Shown here in pieces: positions 1 through 36,186 of a stretch of DNA of 64,000 bases (position 1 is the stretch's first letter; each line of letters begins with the position of its first letter). Both the position numbers and the translations under genes were made by a program. Location: positions 4,712,001-4,776,000 of the forward strand of contig NC_089437.1 of the NCBI RefSeq assembly GCF_026210795.1. The letters run 5' to 3'. The DNA is from Rhizophagus irregularis. Its lineage: Eukaryota; Glomeromycota; Glomeromycetes; Glomerales; Glomeraceae. The notes beneath the pieces were generated by a model. The model did not search any database, was not told where the DNA came from, and saw nothing but the letters and a program-made list of their open reading frames with translations.

Positions 1-1966
1 GTTCCTCCTAGAACAGCAGCCATCGCTTCAATTGTTGTCCTTACAATATTGTTATAAGGATCCTATTTTATTAATTGTTGCCGCTATAATCAGCCCATAT
101 TTTACAGCAAGCAGTATTCAAAAATTGATTATTTCTGATAGAACATGCACCTGTTCTGTAAGTGACCAACCAGAAGTTTGACAATGTGTACGTAACATCA
201 TTGATTTTTGACTTTTTGGATGAAAATTTTCTTGGATCATACAAGCCCATAAACGGCGAGCTGCCCGCATTTTCGCGATTTCCTATTAATTCACTTATTT
301 TTGTTAAATTAACAAACCATACGAGATGGGAGAAAAACATTCATAGTACATTGTACCATGTAAAAATTCATTCCGATTCCCCAAAAGAACGACAGCCGCG
401 GTGCAAAATCATCTACTGTCATACCAGATTTGATTCCTATGAAGTAATCAAACATAGAATGTATTAATAATCAATTCGTGTAAATCATAACTGCATACTA
501 TATACCTGTTCTCACATATTCTAATCCATCTGCAACAGTAAAAGCCAATTCAAGCACGGCATCAGCACCAGCTTCTTGCATGTGATAACCAGATATTGAA
601 ATTGAATTATATTTTGGCATATGCTATCATTAATGAAATTACATGATTCAATCATCAAATGTTTCATAATAAGATCCTACATCACTTAACTAACCTTCGC
701 AGTGAAAGCAAAAATGTCCCCTATAATCTTCATAGAAGGCTCAGGTGGGTAGATGAAAGTATTACGGACCATAAACTCTTTTAGAATATCGTTTTGGATT
801 GTTCCAGATAATTCTTTTAATTGAGCTCCTTGTTCTAATCCTGCGACGATGTACATGGAAAGAATTGGCAACACAGCTCCGTTCATTGTCATTGAAACAG
901 ACATCTTGTTAAGCGGGATTCCATTAAAAAGAATCTATTATATATTTAAATTTTTTTATGATATAATGAATATGTTGGAGGAAATAATATCATACGACTA
1001 CAGTCAGAACTTGATATAACGACTATGCGATATAGATTTTTATCTTTATATATAAACATATTAAATTCGTTATACCAAACTTATAAATTTCGATACAGCG
1101 ATTTTGGTTCAGTGAACCGGAGGGTTCGTTATGTCGAGTTCTGACTGTAAATAGTAAATATATATTTTAATGCATTCGTTTCTATACCTTCATATCTTCC
1201 ACTGAATCAATTGCTACGCCAGCCATTCCGACATCTCCTATCACTCGAGGGTGATCAGAATCGTAACTAATCACAAATATCACAACTGATATTTTAATCA
1301 GCTAAAACTAACTGCATACTCTAACTGTGAAACATGACAATATAATACCCGCGATGTGTAGCCAAATCGAAAGCAACTGATAAACCTTGTTGACCAGCAG
1401 CCAAATTTTTACGATAAAACGCGTTCGATTCTTCCACAGTACTGAATCCTGCATACTATGTAAGAATCAAATTAATTAGTTAACCACCAAAAATAATGGT
1501 ACTTATGTGACATTCTTTCCGACCTGTCGAATTGTCCAAGGTCTTGCGGTATACATTGACGCGTAGGGACCTCTTGTAAAAGGAAACTTGCCAGGAATCT
1601 CGTCTGGAATATTTTCAGTATCAGCTTTGGTATATACCGGTTTCACGTCTAAACCCTAAAAAGTTTTCGGGACATAAAAATATGTTTAACCCTTTAAAGC
1701 TACTGGAGAAAGAACTAACCTCCGCAGTATGCCAAGTCAACTCTTTTACGGGATCCTTCCCTTTCAATTCCTTCGTCGCGTATTTATTCCATTCTTCATT
1801 TAAAGGTACTTTTGTTCGTTTAATTGAGGAAAATGACTAAAATTTTTTAAATTCTTCTTAGAAGTGATTAACTTGCCAGTACGTTTAGTATTAAATATGT
1901 ATTTACCTTTCGCTGAACATGCTTGCTTGTCCATTTCAACATACCAAAAGTTATAATGCGTTGCAT
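1..1966 (-). CDS. MUT: Methylmalonyl-CoA mutase, mitochondrial (3' end outside window)
   Basis: This gene encodes the adenosylcobalamin-dependent mutase that converts (R)-methylmalonyl-CoA to succinyl-CoA in mitochondria. I read ten exons on the minus strand: 1907-1966, 1720-1836, 1524-1655, 1349-1455, 1188-1266, 695-934, 506-623, 357-436, 151-282 and 1-62. All have GT-AG borders and matching phases. Exon 1 encodes 20 basic residues ([20 protein letters not shown]) that fit a mitochondrial presequence. The rest reads as the TIM-barrel domain without a break: [102 protein letters not shown]. From family knowledge, the Tyr of RQYAG, the Arg of VRNT and the His of GYHMQ contact substrate; all are present. 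The C-terminal B12-binding domain lies beyond position 1. Its start is about 200 bp from the start of the divergent OTU gene. Confidence 0.96.
1001..1147. mobile_element. Short MITE (Tc1/mariner-like ends) in a MUT intron
   Basis: A 147-bp palindromic element sits in the intron between the MUT exons 695-934 and 1188-1266. Both ends read CAGTCAGAACT inward, followed after two variable bases by ATAACGA. TA dinucleotides flank it at 999-1000 and 1148-1149, matching the TA target duplication of Tc1/mariner/pogo elements. It has no coding capacity, so it is a non-autonomous MITE. The arms match over about 23 bp with two differences. Confidence 0.75.
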
Positions 1967-2165
1967 TTTCTCACGGAATGTATAAGAACTGAACAGAAAT
2001 CTGTCGACACATTTGACTTCCAGGAGTATTATAAAAAGTGGCGTGGTATTATAAGTATTATGAAAAATGGCGATATTCAGATGCGATAAAAAAATTTTAG
2101 TTGTGTAACGTACCTTTTTTAACTTTGTTCGGTGCATCTTTTATCTTTATAGACTTTCTGAAATC
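1967..2165. promoter_or_regulatory. Shared divergent promoter region between MUT and the OTU gene
   Basis: About 200 bp separates the start codons of two divergent genes, so both promoters must overlap here. The stretch is AT-rich. I see no convincing TATA box or other named site. Confidence 0.5.
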
Positions 2166-4283
2166 ATGGGAAAGAAAAGAAATCGTTCACATAGACCACA
2201 TAAACAACATAAACCTAAGTTTCAACATGTACCTTTGATCTGTTGTTTATATTAAATATACTTTCAGTTTTCTGATAACATTAACGCCTCGTTTTTAAAA
2301 CAATTTCAGCATGGGCGAAAAAATAGGACAAAAATGGTATTGTTTGTCAAGATAATATAAAAACACTGTTTATTTCCATATATCTTAGTTATTTCTTACT
2401 TTGCAGAACGATCTGTCTGCTGACGAATGGACTCGAGCACAACAGGAATTAGATCAACAATTAAAAAAAATGGGTTTATATTGTAAAGAAATTGACGGGG
2501 ATGGAAATTGTTTGTTCAGGTATTTTTCAATGTTATAACCATTTTAAGTGAGAACTGGCACTATCACTAGGATATATAGATTTGATTAATTGAGTCTGTA
2601 ACTATTGTATAGATATTAGCGAGGTACGTAATAAAATAAATTCATAGCAATAAGTACACAAAATATAAGAGACAAATTTTCTTACAAGTTCAAAAAGCAT
2701 CCTATAACTTTATAATTTTTTACTATGTTTCGTTTTAGATTCTTTGTAATAATAACTTGTCCCCAAATCAATTTTTGAGATAGTGCCGGATTAGTTCTTA
2801 AAATAGTAATATTTAATATTAAAAAATTTTTCTTTAAAAGGTCTTTATCAGATCAATTTTATGGAAATACAAAGCAACATTCAAAGATTCGTAAAGAAGT
2901 ATGCGATTATTTAGAAAGGAATCGCGATCATTTCCAATACTTCGTAGAGGATGATAAAACTTTTGATTACCATTTGTCGCAGATGAGAAAAGTTGGTACG
3001 TATGGCGGAAACATGGAATTGGTAGCATTTGCACAACTTCACGAGGTTGATATAAAAGTATATCAACCTGGAACAATCTATGTTATTGAGGGAAAGGAAA
3101 ATGATAACACGAAAGATGATAGATCTACAAACGAAATTAGGACGAGGAGAACCTTACATATCATGTAAGTAATTACAGTAATTACTGTATTTTATAGGTT
3201 AAAGAAATTATATTTTTCTGGGATAATATTTATTTATATTTTAACGAAATTCAGAATTCTAATCATATTTATTTAGTTATCATAACTGGGAACATTATAG
3301 TTCGGTAAGGAACATTCAAGGACCGCATGAGGGTGACCCGGAAATAATATCTGAGGTAAAATTTACCTTTTATTTTTGGATTATTGAGTTCTAGGTTATG
3401 TTCTCTTATCGAATAATTTCTTCGCTTAGCCAATAAATACTGCAAATGATTCTATCGAAAAATGGATCATGGACTCTACTGGAGAGAGGAATTTGACAAA
3501 AATTCGAGAAATGATGAAGAGATTACAATTTGATCACAACGAAGTTATAAATGAATTACTCGATGGTTCACAAAAAAGCTTCATTGATGATGTTGGATCC
3601 AATTCAAAAAAGTTTGCCGACGAAGTCATAAACGAATCAATTGAAAGTTCACTGAAGAGTTCTATTAATGATGATGAATCCAATTCAAAAAAAACTATAT
3701 CCGAGGTCACAAACGATTCAGATCATGACGGATCCAATTCAAAAAAAACTATTTCTGAAATCTCGAACGAATCAGATCATGACGGATCTAATTCAAAAAA
3801 GTCTGTTGACGAAGTTACAAATGAATCAATCCAAAGTTCACAGAAAAGCTCCATCAATGACGATGGGTTCAATTCAAAAAAAGATATTGAATCAATTGGA
3901 AGCTCACAAAAAAGCTCGATTAACAATAAGACTGGTGAAGGTTAGTTTAATTTCTATTCACATTAATCTTAACGAATATGCTGTGAAATTAAATACACTA
4001 TTTATTAGATACAGAAGAGAATTCGCCTGTTAAACATCCTTCTCAAAAGACAATTGATAAGTCTTTAGATTCATTTCAAAACAAGCAATCTGAAATGGTA
4101 TCAAAAAAACGAAGTCAGAAAGCTTTAGACTCGGATCCAATATTGAAAAATCAATCTTTATCTAAAAAAGAAAAAAGAAAATTACGTAAAAAGCAAAACC
4201 GACATAAAAACAATTATAGGAATGATAGCGTGGTAAAACATAAAGATAAGGAAGATAAAGTAATATTACAATTGTTTATTTAA
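2166..4283 (+). CDS. OTU-domain deubiquitinase, OTUD3-like
   Basis: A predicted cysteine protease that removes ubiquitin. I read seven exons: 2166-2228, 2310-2336, 2407-2519, 2841-3164, 3277-3355, 3430-3940 and 4009-4283, giving 463 residues in consistent phase. The N-terminus is short and basic (MGKKRNRSHRPHKQHK). The OTU domain follows: IDGDGNCLFRSLSDQ holds the catalytic Asp and Cys, then VGTYGGNMELVAFA, and YHNWEHYSSVR supplies the catalytic His. Past the domain the protein has a region at about 3580-3935 built from repeats of SNSKK...EVTNES...SSQKSSINDD, then a Lys-rich tail (SKKEKRKLRKKQNRHK). The domain order and the HYDSVR-like motif fit OTUD3 best. The low-complexity repeats look lineage-specific. 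The stop lies about 140 bp before the next gene. Confidence 0.9.
3580..3935 (+). repeat. Degenerate in-frame tandem repeat in the OTU gene
   Basis: Within one exon the DNA repeats units containing 'tccaattcaaaaaa' (SNSKK) about five times, alternating with units for SSxKSSINDD. The units keep the reading frame and encode Ser/Asn/Asp/Lys-rich disordered protein. This suggests expansion by slippage or unequal exchange under coding constraint. Confidence 0.75.
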
Positions 4284-4419
4284 TAAATAATGATCGACAA
4301 GAAACGTTAATTCTGTTCCTTTCTTTCATGATATCATTATTTTGAAATGATTCCATTTACAATACTTCTTGGCAATAAAAAACGAAATATCGATTTTAAT
4401 CGTCAATAAAAATGTCGAA

Positions 4420-7400
4420 ATGTATTTGACCATTTGGTCTCGTACTTTACGGCATATCAGTTATTTAAATTCAAATGCAGTGTTGTATCGAGATACTTTC
4501 TCTATAAAATCACGTTATCTGATTATTCATTCTCTTGGTGCTATTCGTAATAAAGCTACTGCCGTAAACTCTTCACAACCTCAAGACTCAGTTTCTCAAA
4601 ATGGTTTTTCTCAAAGAAATGCGACAAATTATATTGAAGGAATATATGAAGCATGGTTAAGAGATCCTTCTTCAGTTCACTTGTCATGGCAGATATATTT
4701 TAAGAATATGGAATCTAATATGAAAACTTATCGGCCCTCACCAACAATCGTTCCTTTGACCGGGTTGACTACTTCTTTATCACCGAGCACGAGTCAATAT
4801 GATGATCATATGAAAGTTCAATTATTGGTAAGAGCATATCAAGTTCGCGGTCATCATATTGCAAAATTGGATCCAGATTTAAGTGATACCATTCCAAAAG
4901 AACTTGATCCGAGATATTATGGTTTCACAGAAAAAGATTTAGATGAGAAATTCTCACTTGGTCCTGGTATATTGCCGGCATTCGCTGAGACTGAAAAAAA
5001 AAAGACACTTAGAGAAATAGTGGATACATGCAAAACAATATATTGTAAGAAATTTAAAAAATGACACTTATTAATTTGGATCAATTATTAAAACATTTAT
5101 TATTATATAGGTAGCACTATTGGTATTGAATATACTCATATTTCTGATCGAGTACAGTATGATTGGATTTGTTCTAAAATAGAAATTCCAAAGCAATACG
5201 ATTACACATTAGAAGAGAAACGCACGATTTTAGATCGATTAATATGGTCCGATTCGTTTGAACGGTTTGTTTCCACAAAGTATCCAAATGAGAGGAGATT
5301 CGGTTTGGAAGGCTGTGAGAGATACCAGGAATGAAAGCTTTGGTATGATAAAAGTGCAAGAAATTTTTTTTAATAAATATCAAATTTACAAAATTCACTC
5401 AATTATAAATTATTTATTAGATTGATCGGTCTGTTGATCTTGGCATAGAGTCACTTGTACTTGGGATGGCTCATCGTGGACGTCTTAATGTCTTGAGTAA
5501 TGTAGTCCGTAAACCAAATGAGTCCATTTTCAATGAATTCAGTGGAATAGAGCCATCAGATGAAGGGACTGGTGATGTGAAATATCATTTGGGTATGAAT
5601 TATGACCGACCTACGCCTTCTGGCAAGCATGTACATCTTTCTTTAGCTGCAAATCCAGCACATTTGGAAGCAGTCGATCCTGTTGTACTTGGCAAAACTC
5701 GTGCGCTTCAACACTATGCAAATGATGAAAAGGAACATCATCGTTCAATGGCTTTATTATTACATGGTGATGCTGCTTTTGCAGCTCAAGGTGTCGTGTA
5801 TGAAACAATGGGTTTCCATGATCTGCCAAATTATACTACGGGTGGTACTGTTCATTTAATTGTCAACAACCAAATTGGTTTCACTACAGACCCTCGATTT
5901 GCTCATTCAACTCCATACTGCTCAGACGTGGCTAAGGTAGTAAATGCTCCTATCTTTCATGTTAATGGTGATGACGTAGAAGCAGTAAATTTTGTGTGCC
6001 AACTCGCCGCTGAATGGAGACAGACATTTAAAAAAGATGTTGTCGTTGATATTGTTTGCTACCGCAAATATGGTCATAATGAAGTTGATCAACCCAGTTT
6101 TACTCAACCTAGAATGTACCAACAAATAGCTAAACAAACACCAATTCTTGAAAAATATGTACAAAAGTTATTGAAAGATGGCACTTTTACTAAGGAGGAC
6201 ATTGAAAAGCATAAGAAACGGGTTTGGAATATATTAGAAGAAAACTATCAAAAAAGCAAAGATTATGTACCAACAAGTCGTGAGTGGTTATCTAGTTCTT
6301 GGAATGGTAAGAACAATAATTACTATCACTTTAATCGAGCTACTCTTATTCCAAAAATTCACAGCTAATTTTTTTTTATTAAGGTTTTAAATCACCAAAG
6401 GAGCTTGCCGAAGAAATTACACCAGCATATCCAACTGGTTCATCTTACGAGCTCCTTCAACATGTTGGTGAGGTTATTAGTTCATATCCAAAAGGTTTTA
6501 ATGTACATTCGGGTTTAGTTAGAATTCTTAAGGCTCGTGCTAAAGCTATCAACGAAGGACAAGGAATTGACTGGCCCACTGCCGAGGGTCTTGCACTTGG
6601 TTCATTACTTCTTGAAGGTAAACATGTTCGTTTATCAGGTCAAGACGTTGAGCGTGGAACTTTTTCACAACGTCATGCAGTACTTCATGATCAAGTAAAT
6701 GAAACACAATATGTACCATTAAACGATTTAAGACCTTATCAAGCTAAATTTTCCGTTTGTAATTCTTCTCTATCGGAATTTGGGGTTCTTGGTTTTGAAT
6801 ATGGATATTCGCTAGTCAACCCTAATTCTCTGGTTTTATGGGAAGCACAATTTGGGGATTTTATCAATAATGCTCAATGTATAATTGACCAATTCATAGC
6901 TTCTGGTGAAACAAAACGGTTACAACGTACTGGATTGGTTGTTTTATTACCACATGGTTATGATGGTCAAGGACCTGAACATTCTAGTGGACGCTTGGAA
7001 CGTTTCCTCCAATTATGTAATGATCATCCATATGTTTATCCTCCACCGGAAAAAATGGCGCGTCAACACCAGGATTGTAATGTGCAAATAATAAATGTTA
7101 CAACTCCTGCAAACTATTTCCATGTTTTGAGAAGGCAAATTCACCGTGATTTTAGGAAACCAGTAAGTTTTAAAATTTGAGATTTTTTTGGCACTTTATT
7201 TTAATATAATTAAATTATTATTATGAAATTTAGCTTATTGCATTTACGTCAAAGAGCCTTCTTCGCCATCCAATGGCACGTTCTTCTCTTGCTGAGATGA
7301 CTGGGGACACAACCTTTATGCGTTATATACCAGATCCACATCCTGAAACATTAGCATCACCTGAAAAAATAACACGGCATATTTTATGTTCTGGACAAGT

Positions 7401-31040: not shown

Positions 31041-33584
<2,544 letters not shown>

Positions 33585-34027
33585 TTTTTTTTATGAGGAC
33601 TTTTTTGAAAGTTTTAGATTTTAAATTTTTATCATCTATTTGTAACACAAATCTTTGAAAATCAAATTACGTAATGCATCTAAATCCGATTTAGTTTGAC
33701 GCGTTTCTTTTGATTGTATGCAAATAACAGTTTTAATGTTTAATACAAGATATGAAAAATATGAAAATAATTAAAATTTCTCTATAAATAAAGTTTTTTG
33801 ATTTATTTTAATCATAACTTATAAACTATTGTATTACATAATAATTTTAATCGAAAAATTTGCCACCATTAAAACTACATATAATCAGATAATTAATTGT
33901 CCCTCACTCCCTCATTCATAATTAATCTATTAACATAGAATATTTCACTGTACAACAAAATTTTATTATCTTCATAATGAAGTAATTATTTTATATTTTA
34001 ACAATTGTAAAAAAAATACAAGGATGA
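33585..34027. other. Helicase promoter and 3' flank of the MRG gene
   Basis: About 440 bp between two minus-strand genes, AT-rich. No separate feature recognised. Confidence 0.45.
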
Positions 34028-36186
34028 TTATGCAGACTTATTTCGTAAGTTGTTCCAAAGATGTTCAGGACGATGCGATTTGTATTTAGAGAAGTAAAGA
34101 CCACATGCTGCAATAAATTAACGTTTATGGTTTAAATACTTAATTCCAAAATATTAAATTTTATGGTAAACTTACCATTACAAAGCTTCTTATCTGGAGT
34201 TTCACCTGCTCTCCATCCCGGTGTATTTGATGTTTTGCAATTTGCACAAACCCAACCTATATTCATAATAAAAATTAAACATTAACACAAGTCCAAAATA
34301 TAATTAAAAAAAAATAGAAAAATAAAACTACAACACTAAAAAAAGATACGTGGTTTTTTTTGTTCCAATGATACAATTATAAAAACACTTTTTTTAGTTT
34401 TAACCCAAAAAGTACAGATCACTGATTAAATTGAAATTGGGATATAGTCTAAATTACCCTCTCGTAATCTCTTACTAATATAACCACATGTCTTTTTTTC
34501 GGTTGCTTCTTGGATTTTTGGTAGTGGCATACCATGACGTTCATATTCCGTTTCGGCAAAATATTGATCTTCATTTTTTTGTATAAACCTTTAAATAGAT
34601 AATCAAATTAAAAAGAATTTTTGGCAACAAAATAAAAAATAAAAAAAAAAATATTACTTTAAGAAATCAATTAAATGTTCTTCAAGTGTCTCCGTAGCTG
34701 CTTGATCCATTGTAGTATGAGCAAGCAATCGTGGAAGTTCAACTATTTTTTTTAAAAAAAATCAGTTTAATTACGTTTAATGAAAAAAATTAACGAATTA
34801 ACTTACGAACCAAAAAGTCGCAACAAGTGCTCTGCTCCATATATTTCTGAATTCTCTTTATCAAGGAATTGCTTACGGATATTTACATATTGTTGACGTT
34901 CATCAGCATACAAAAGGATATTTCCAAGAGTTTTGTCAAAATATATTTTAATGCCTTGAACAACTTCAGAATGTATATCATCCCTTAAAAGATTTATATT
35001 ATTTTAATAAAAAAGCATATTTGTAATATATTTAAAATTTGTAATTAATTTGTATTCTCACTTATCAGATTTCTGGTTGTTAGCTGTAGATGCTATCAAA
35101 TTATGTTTGAACTCCAAATATTCATTCAAAATATCTGCAACAGTATATTTACGGGGCAATTTCAATAACTACGAAGAAAGAAGAAACATAAATAAAACAT
35201 CAATTTGCTAATAACAAACTATTTTAATATCTATCATATTACATACAGCATTATTCCTCGTAACGTTTTCCCAATCATCAATTAATTTGACTTTTAATGA
35301 TTCAGGCAGTGGTATTTTAATTTCGAGACGGTTCATGAACTCTTCCTCCTATAATATATAAAGTTGTATTAGAATTACATATTACACGTTTAAAACCTTC
35401 GAAATAATAATAAATAATAACAATAAAATTGATAAATACTAACTTCTTCATCATCATTAATCTTTTTTCTCTTTTTACCACGTTCATGGTTTTCTTTCTG
35501 TAGTTGATCTTCTTGTAATTCAGCTTCATTCTTATTATCTTCAATATCCACATCTTACGTTATAATAATGTTTGGTTTTAAAATCTTTGTTTAATATTAT
35601 TAAATTTTGATGTTACTTACCTCCTTGATGACTTGGTGAACTTTCTGAAACATCATTACTCTTTTCCTGATCCTCAATTGAACCTTTGTTTCCTATTCTG
35701 ACTGTTTTCTTTTTCTTGTTTGAATATGTATCTTTAAGTTGTTTTTGTCTCATTAAGTTTGCTTCGTTATGTTTCACTACTCTTTCCTCCGGAACCCATT
35801 CATCCCATCTATTAAAATATATGAAATTCGATATAATATTTATTACAAATCGAAAAATCCACGACATTTTAATTAAATATTTATAAAAAAAACAACTAAA
35901 ACGCGCTTAAGCGCGAAAATGTATATACGTTTTCTTCCAGCCTTTATAATGTACATAATAGTGTGGACCAGTGTCACCAGACTCTGAATCTTCAGGACCC
36001 CAGTTTTCAGCTTTTAGGATCTAAATAATTAAAAAAGTTATATAGTTCAGTATCATAAGAAAAAAAAAAGATAGTTTTTTTTTATTACTATACCTTAGCC
36101 TCATAAAGTAAAGGACCATGAAAGCACAAAACAAGTTCATTCTGCTCAAAATTTAGTTTATGATCAGTAGTTTCAGTGTCTGCCAT
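34028..36186 (-). CDS. EAF3: Chromodomain-MRG protein (Eaf3/MRG15-like) with C-terminal GATA zinc finger
   Basis: Eaf3/MRG15 proteins read H3K36 methylation in NuA4 acetyltransferase and Rpd3S deacetylase complexes. Start 36186 (MADTETTDHKL). The chromo barrel spans FEQNELVLCFHGPLLYEAK, ENWGPEDSES, YYVHYKGWKKTWDEWVPEER. A Lys/Glu/Ser linker follows, then the MRG domain: NRLEIKIPLPESLKVKLIDD, LPRKYTVADILNEY, LLYADERQQY, YGAEHLLRLF, LPRLLAHTTMD, EEHLIDFLK. Usual members end shortly after this. Here the reading frame continues through ETEYERHGMPLPK, a basic linker ISKRLREG, and a GATA finger: CANCKTSNTPGWRAG, then LCNACGLY, that is Cys-x2-Cys-x18-Cys-x2-Cys, followed by SKYKSHRPEHLW and the stop at 34028. 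Phases agree at the joining introns (REG|W and CN|A). No start codon or promoter-sized gap separates the finger, so it looks like one fused protein. Confidence 0.9.

Follow-up and report, generated by a model that had tools for sequence, protein, structure and literature searches.

A predicted MRG15/Eaf3-family protein extended in frame by a C-terminal GATA-type zinc finger in Rhizophagus irregularis

MRG15/Eaf3 is a subunit common to several histone-modifying complexes, and its placement on chromatin is normally achieved via H3K36 methylation and via partner proteins. Members of the MRG15/MORF4L1-Eaf3-Alp13 family contain a chromo-like domain, a charged linker and an MRG domain in the same order as the protein described here; their solved chains end directly past the MRG domain, whereas our protein continues with a coding linker and a GATA-type zinc finger. 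Eaf3 is also found in Rpd3S, a complex that contacts nucleosomal and linker DNA (PMC10432269, excerpt). In the ASH1L-MRG15-Caf1 (AMC) complex, MRG15 binds an FxLP motif present in the Ash1 proteins of fly and human, and it stimulates the dimethylation of H3K36 (PMC5963871, excerpt); this motif has been reviewed (PMC8701324, excerpt). A GATA finger appended to a histone-complex subunit is already known from the SNF5/Sfh1-GATA proteins of fungal SWI/SNF-type complexes, and the SNF5-GATA architecture was described in Aspergillus oryzae (AoSnf5; PMC8055810, excerpt) and repeated in a further paper (PMC8706292, excerpt). Our predicted protein would be built alike, but on another host protein, and its finger has a loop of 18 residues where that of AoSnf5 has 20 (PMC8055810, excerpt). 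For an MRG15/Eaf3 host we found no report: searches for an MRG domain or Eaf3/MRG15 together with a GATA finger returned no papers in open-licence PubMed Central. As this was the scope of the search, predicted MRG-GATA proteins may well be present in public proteomes.

The window analyzed here is a stretch of 64,000 nucleotides on contig C9 (4712001-4776000) of a genome that was searched over 146.7 Mb in 32 contigs. Our gene model, built from the DNA, places the MRG-GATA gene on the minus strand at 36186..34028, where 11 exons form a single 413-residue frame closed by a TAA stop. The start codon and the chromo domain begin in exon 1 (36094..36186); the domain continues through exon 2 (35929..36020) and ends in exon 3 (35621..35808), which also opens the linker. 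Exon 4 (35444..35553) encodes the charged linker, and the MRG domain occupies exons 5 (35247..35348), 6 (35062..35168), 7 (34811..34983) and 8 (34658..34742). It ends in exon 9 (34458..34588), which also carries a 28-codon C-terminal linker assigned from the gene model, paralogue comparison and coding score. The fusion junction is intron 9 (34257..34457; 201 nt, phase 1, GTAATT...AATATAG), the removal of which joins RE-G to WVCANC in phase. Exon 10 (34176..34256) is flanked by phase-1 introns and encodes the first part of the GATA finger, as judged from the gene model, Pfam and a sister gene described below. Intron 10 (34108..34175; 68 nt, phase 1) splits LCN/ACG, and exon 11 (34028..34107) supplies the second part of the finger, a short tail and the stop codon. 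Past this stop, an AATAAA at 33962..33967 on the same strand may serve as a poly(A) signal.

Pfam searches with the 413-residue protein identified the MRG domain (PF05712) at residues 153-333 with an E-value of 9.5e-61 (204.9 bits against a cut-off of 22.8) and a GATA finger at residues 364-398 with 1.7e-12 (47.1 bits against 26.8). Near the N-terminus, the MSL3_chromo-like (1.2e-18) and Tudor-knot (6.8e-13) models both scored above their curated cut-offs, and the general Chromo model fell below its own (16.9 against 25.1 bits). The protein continues for 80 residues beyond the end of the Pfam MRG match. Its finger has the spacing Cys-x2-Cys-x18-Cys-x2-Cys, which fits the GATA-type pattern Cys-x2-Cys-x17-20-Cys-x2-Cys. 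A first-pass annotation of this DNA had proposed a chromo-MRG protein running in phase, through a REG/W junction, into a GATA finger followed by a stop; the 11-exon frame, the Pfam matches and the phase of intron 9 agree with it on each of these points.

The best solved relatives of the protein are 8i02_D, 'eaf3' (1.9e-60), which we take to be fission yeast Alp13, and 8bpa_D, 'Mortality factor 4-like protein 1' (7.3e-55). The alignments reach close to the end of both chains (residue 325 of 337 and 351 of 362, respectively). As regards a putative aromatic cage for methylated H3K36, the PLLYEAK, HYKGW and WDEWV blocks are conserved relative to 8i02_D. A genome search in which the best candidates were scored gave at least five MRG matches in at least four genes. 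Seven introns interrupt each of the copies on contigs C5 and C21, whose last residues are EYQKFKD and EYEEINI, respectively. The copy on C3 is intronless, consists of one 336-residue frame that ends just past the MRG domain, and lacks both linker and finger. None of the 42 GATA matches of the genome search lies near these three copies. The usual end of MRG15/Eaf3 proteins, which the earlier annotation had placed just after the MRG domain, is thus seen in the solved chains and in the three paralogues alike. In comparisons with 8i02_D the window copy scored 207 bits and the other three MRG genes found scored 195, 169 and 108; with a MORF4L1 fragment the values were 136 against 98, 97 and 88. As it ranks first among the four MRG genes found, the finger-extended copy seems to be the main MRG15/Eaf3 gene of this fungus and not a spare. 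Scans of bacterial and archaeal contigs (9 pattern stretches) and of viral contigs (8) confirmed no relatives.

Two observations concern the paralogues themselves. The intronless chromo-MRG gene on C3 (L001, C3:2311511-2315032, at about 1054-2061) is possibly an old retrocopy. Among the sequences compared, the C5 and C21 copies are most closely related to one another, with 54% identity.

Beyond the MRG domain the reading frame stays open for 28 further codons that are absent from the three paralogues. In frame, this linker has a coding score of 26.9 bits, compared with 7.3 and 16.0 for the two alternative frames, and none of the 337 open windows among 2743 noncoding windows tried at linker length reached that value (maximum 18.9); the test is unevenly sensitive, because the part of exon 9 that certainly encodes MRG sequence reaches 1.6 bits. 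The GC content falls at the proposed donor, from 0.38 in the linker to 0.21 in intron 9, and 28 of the 2743 noncoding windows reach the GC content of the linker. None of the 22 reference introns (65-120 nt) is as long as intron 9, whose donor score of 4.8 falls in the lower third (range 0.6-8.5). Its GTAATT donor and AATATAG acceptor are each present in the C5 paralogue. The length of the intron, its middling donor and the short open tail that leads to a stop past the donor would all suit regulated splicing, in which intron 9 is sometimes retained and one locus yields both an ordinary MRG15, ending in NLDYIPISI and a stop, and an MRG15-GATA protein. The retained tail, however, has a GC content of 22% and resembles noncoding sequence, and we regard regulated splicing as unlikely.

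The annotation had also claimed that the finger exons lack a start codon of their own. This does not hold: an in-frame ATG at 34266-34264 (minus strand), inside the final ten nucleotides of intron 9, precedes the finger and could act as an independent start. Unspliced reading from this codon gives a 56-residue finger protein beginning MNIGWVCANC, so that the case against a reading as two genes must be made on other grounds. According to that reading, an MRG gene ending in REGNLDYIPISI and a stop is followed by a separate 56-residue GATA-finger gene, and besides the ATG it can draw on the stop that lies within a few codons past the proposed donor. Against it, the coding linker would be left without a purpose, and the GC content drops at the donor and not at the stop. 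A bare 56-residue gene was seen at none of the 29 other finger loci, for part of which gene models were built. Moreover, the start of the finger exon coincides exactly with a splice boundary of the homologous finger exon in a BRD7/9-like gene, where the finger forms the tail of a long protein. On this evidence we consider two adjacent genes very improbable, and the predicted MRG-finger fusion is well supported from the DNA alone. Two further leads on intron 9 and its junction were dropped. A repeat or mobile-element origin was not borne out, as a genome search that skips simple repeats matched the intron to itself alone, and a retrocopy of the spliced fusion, which could have served as proof of the junction, did not turn up: exons 9, 10 and 11 match together solely in the window.

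The BRD7/9-like gene carries the sister of the window finger. This paralogous gene (C30:2045269; about 1737-5490 within C30:2040000-2047500) encodes a bromodomain (8.8e-24), DUF3512 (3.1e-12) and a C-terminal GATA finger (1.5e-12) according to Pfam; we take DUF3512 to be a domain of BRD7/BRD9-like proteins. It resembles the window gene in its C-terminal finger and differs in its host, a bromodomain reader as against a chromo/MRG protein. Among the papers listed in a literature search for BRD7/9-GATA proteins, none dealt with them. The two fingers are identical at 32 of 43 residues, and in each gene one phase-1 intron interrupts the third codon ahead of the first cysteine and a second one falls at LCN/ACG. 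Thirty finger loci were taken from the genome, 29 of which had readable fingers and 24 a scorable TGYAAYG (LCN) motif. GT directly follows this motif in 2 of the 24, namely the window and its C30 sister alone. At the exact upstream boundary AG is present in 4 of the 29 (L013, L029, L031 and L033); L013, lying in a 79-codon open frame, and L033, with an acceptor further upstream, have coding sequence at this position and were dropped as boundary matches, leaving two. Over the 43 codons, the sister fingers differ at 14 first, 3 second and 29 third positions, and the contrast between second and third positions indicates protein-level constraint on the finger. The NG86 estimate of dN is 0.19, and dS is saturated. 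Two results weigh against a close link between the pair. Two unrelated intronless fingers outscore the sister in single matches (46.6 bits against 44.7 and 22.5) because the sister finger is split in two. Homology of the linkers that precede the two sister fingers was not significant, with 128 of 2000 shuffles scoring as high. As the finger of the BRD7/9-like gene closes a long protein, the simplest reading of its homologue in the window is likewise that of an internal exon.

Whether the finger would recognize GATA sites is less certain than its presence in the protein. It keeps all four cysteines, the NACGLY of the second knuckle and the HRP, and its score is well above the Pfam cut-off for GATA. 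In an alignment with GATA-1, its loop reads TPGWRA in place of TTLWRR and its helix YFSKY in place of YYKLH; the finger residues thus differ at positions that we take to contact DNA in GATA-1. Behind the finger comes a short, weakly basic tail, PEHLWNNLRNKSA, with few basic residues, contrary to the basic tail claimed at first. Given the loop and helix differences and the few basic residues of the tail, strict GATA-site reading is doubtful, and the targeting of NuA4/Rpd3S to GATA sites through the finger, as first proposed, should be viewed as possible. A finger that is real but serves protein-protein or general nucleosome contact would suit these substitutions and the tail, and the host of its nearest relative is another chromatin-complex subunit rather than a sequence-specific factor. 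This is a substantial possibility, somewhat short of an even chance. It is opposed by the conserved residues and the Pfam score given above, and fingers of the plant type whose loops are similar do bind GATA.

GATA-type fingers also occur on other chromatin proteins of the same genome. A SNF5 gene on C31 (C31:1346500-1352500, at about 2600-3820) combines SNF5 (3.7e-54) with a C-terminal GATA finger (1.6e-9) by Pfam. A PHD-finger protein (C13:3451500-3457500, at about 3640-4500) has a degenerate GATA-like finger scoring 18.2 bits against the cut-off of 26.8. An LCN/ACG intron common to these two fingers was considered and rejected, as the DNA places the SNF5 intron at K/TLCN in phase 0 and gives a phase-2 intron for the PHD protein. 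Another GATA-finger protein (L056, C5:2379) gave no Pfam hit over a stretch of 502 residues. An AWS-SET gene (C14:2425500-2431500, at 2706-4870) has ASH1L as its best solved relatives (7.5e-49, with the next family at 1.5e-35). A GATA-type finger (3.5e-7) lies near the N-terminus of its product, about 200 residues before AWS-SET, with a first pair spaced Cys-x4-Cys, and FPLP and FRLP motifs are found upstream of the AWS domain. The FRLP aligns with the FQLP of ASH1L in 6ine_A (2.6e-56), an entry that also holds MORF4L1. An ASH1L-like gene with an FxLP motif makes an MRG15-ASH1 pairing plausible in this host, as in the AMC complex (PMC5963871, excerpt); here, unlike in that complex, both putative partners would carry GATA fingers. 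Taken with the finger of the BRD7/9-like protein, those on SNF5 and on the ASH1L-like protein point to repeated addition of GATA modules to chromatin machines in this lineage.

Our preferred explanation, to which we assign a probability of roughly 0.6, is that the main MRG15/Eaf3 gene was extended by a shuffled-in GATA module that adds a DNA- or nucleosome-contacting arm. The module would consist of the symmetrical phase 1-1 exon and the terminal exon, copied between genes for chromatin proteins by exon shuffling. In such a protein the chromo domain would read H3K36 methylation, and the MRG domain would dock FxLP-type partners, which may include Rpd3S- or NuA4-like subunits and the ASH1L-like H3K36 methyltransferase of this genome. 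The finger would raise or bias the chromatin binding of the complex; strict specificity for GATA sites is possible and is the least certain step. A built-in finger on the main MRG15/Eaf3 copy would combine mark reading and DNA contact in one subunit, and the question of how such general complexes come to particular loci could be tested by removing a single pair of exons. A bolder and rather improbable extension is that the ASH1L-like H3K36 writer, MRG15 as its presumed activator and reader, and the BRD7/9-like acetyl reader form a write-and-read loop nucleated at DNA sequences through their GATA-type fingers. If true, the loop would seed itself at chosen sequences, with no separate transcription factor to recruit it.

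Downstream of the MRG-GATA gene, from window position 33584 downwards on the minus strand, the next gene looks by eye like a DEAD-box RNA helicase with an AKSGTGKT motif.
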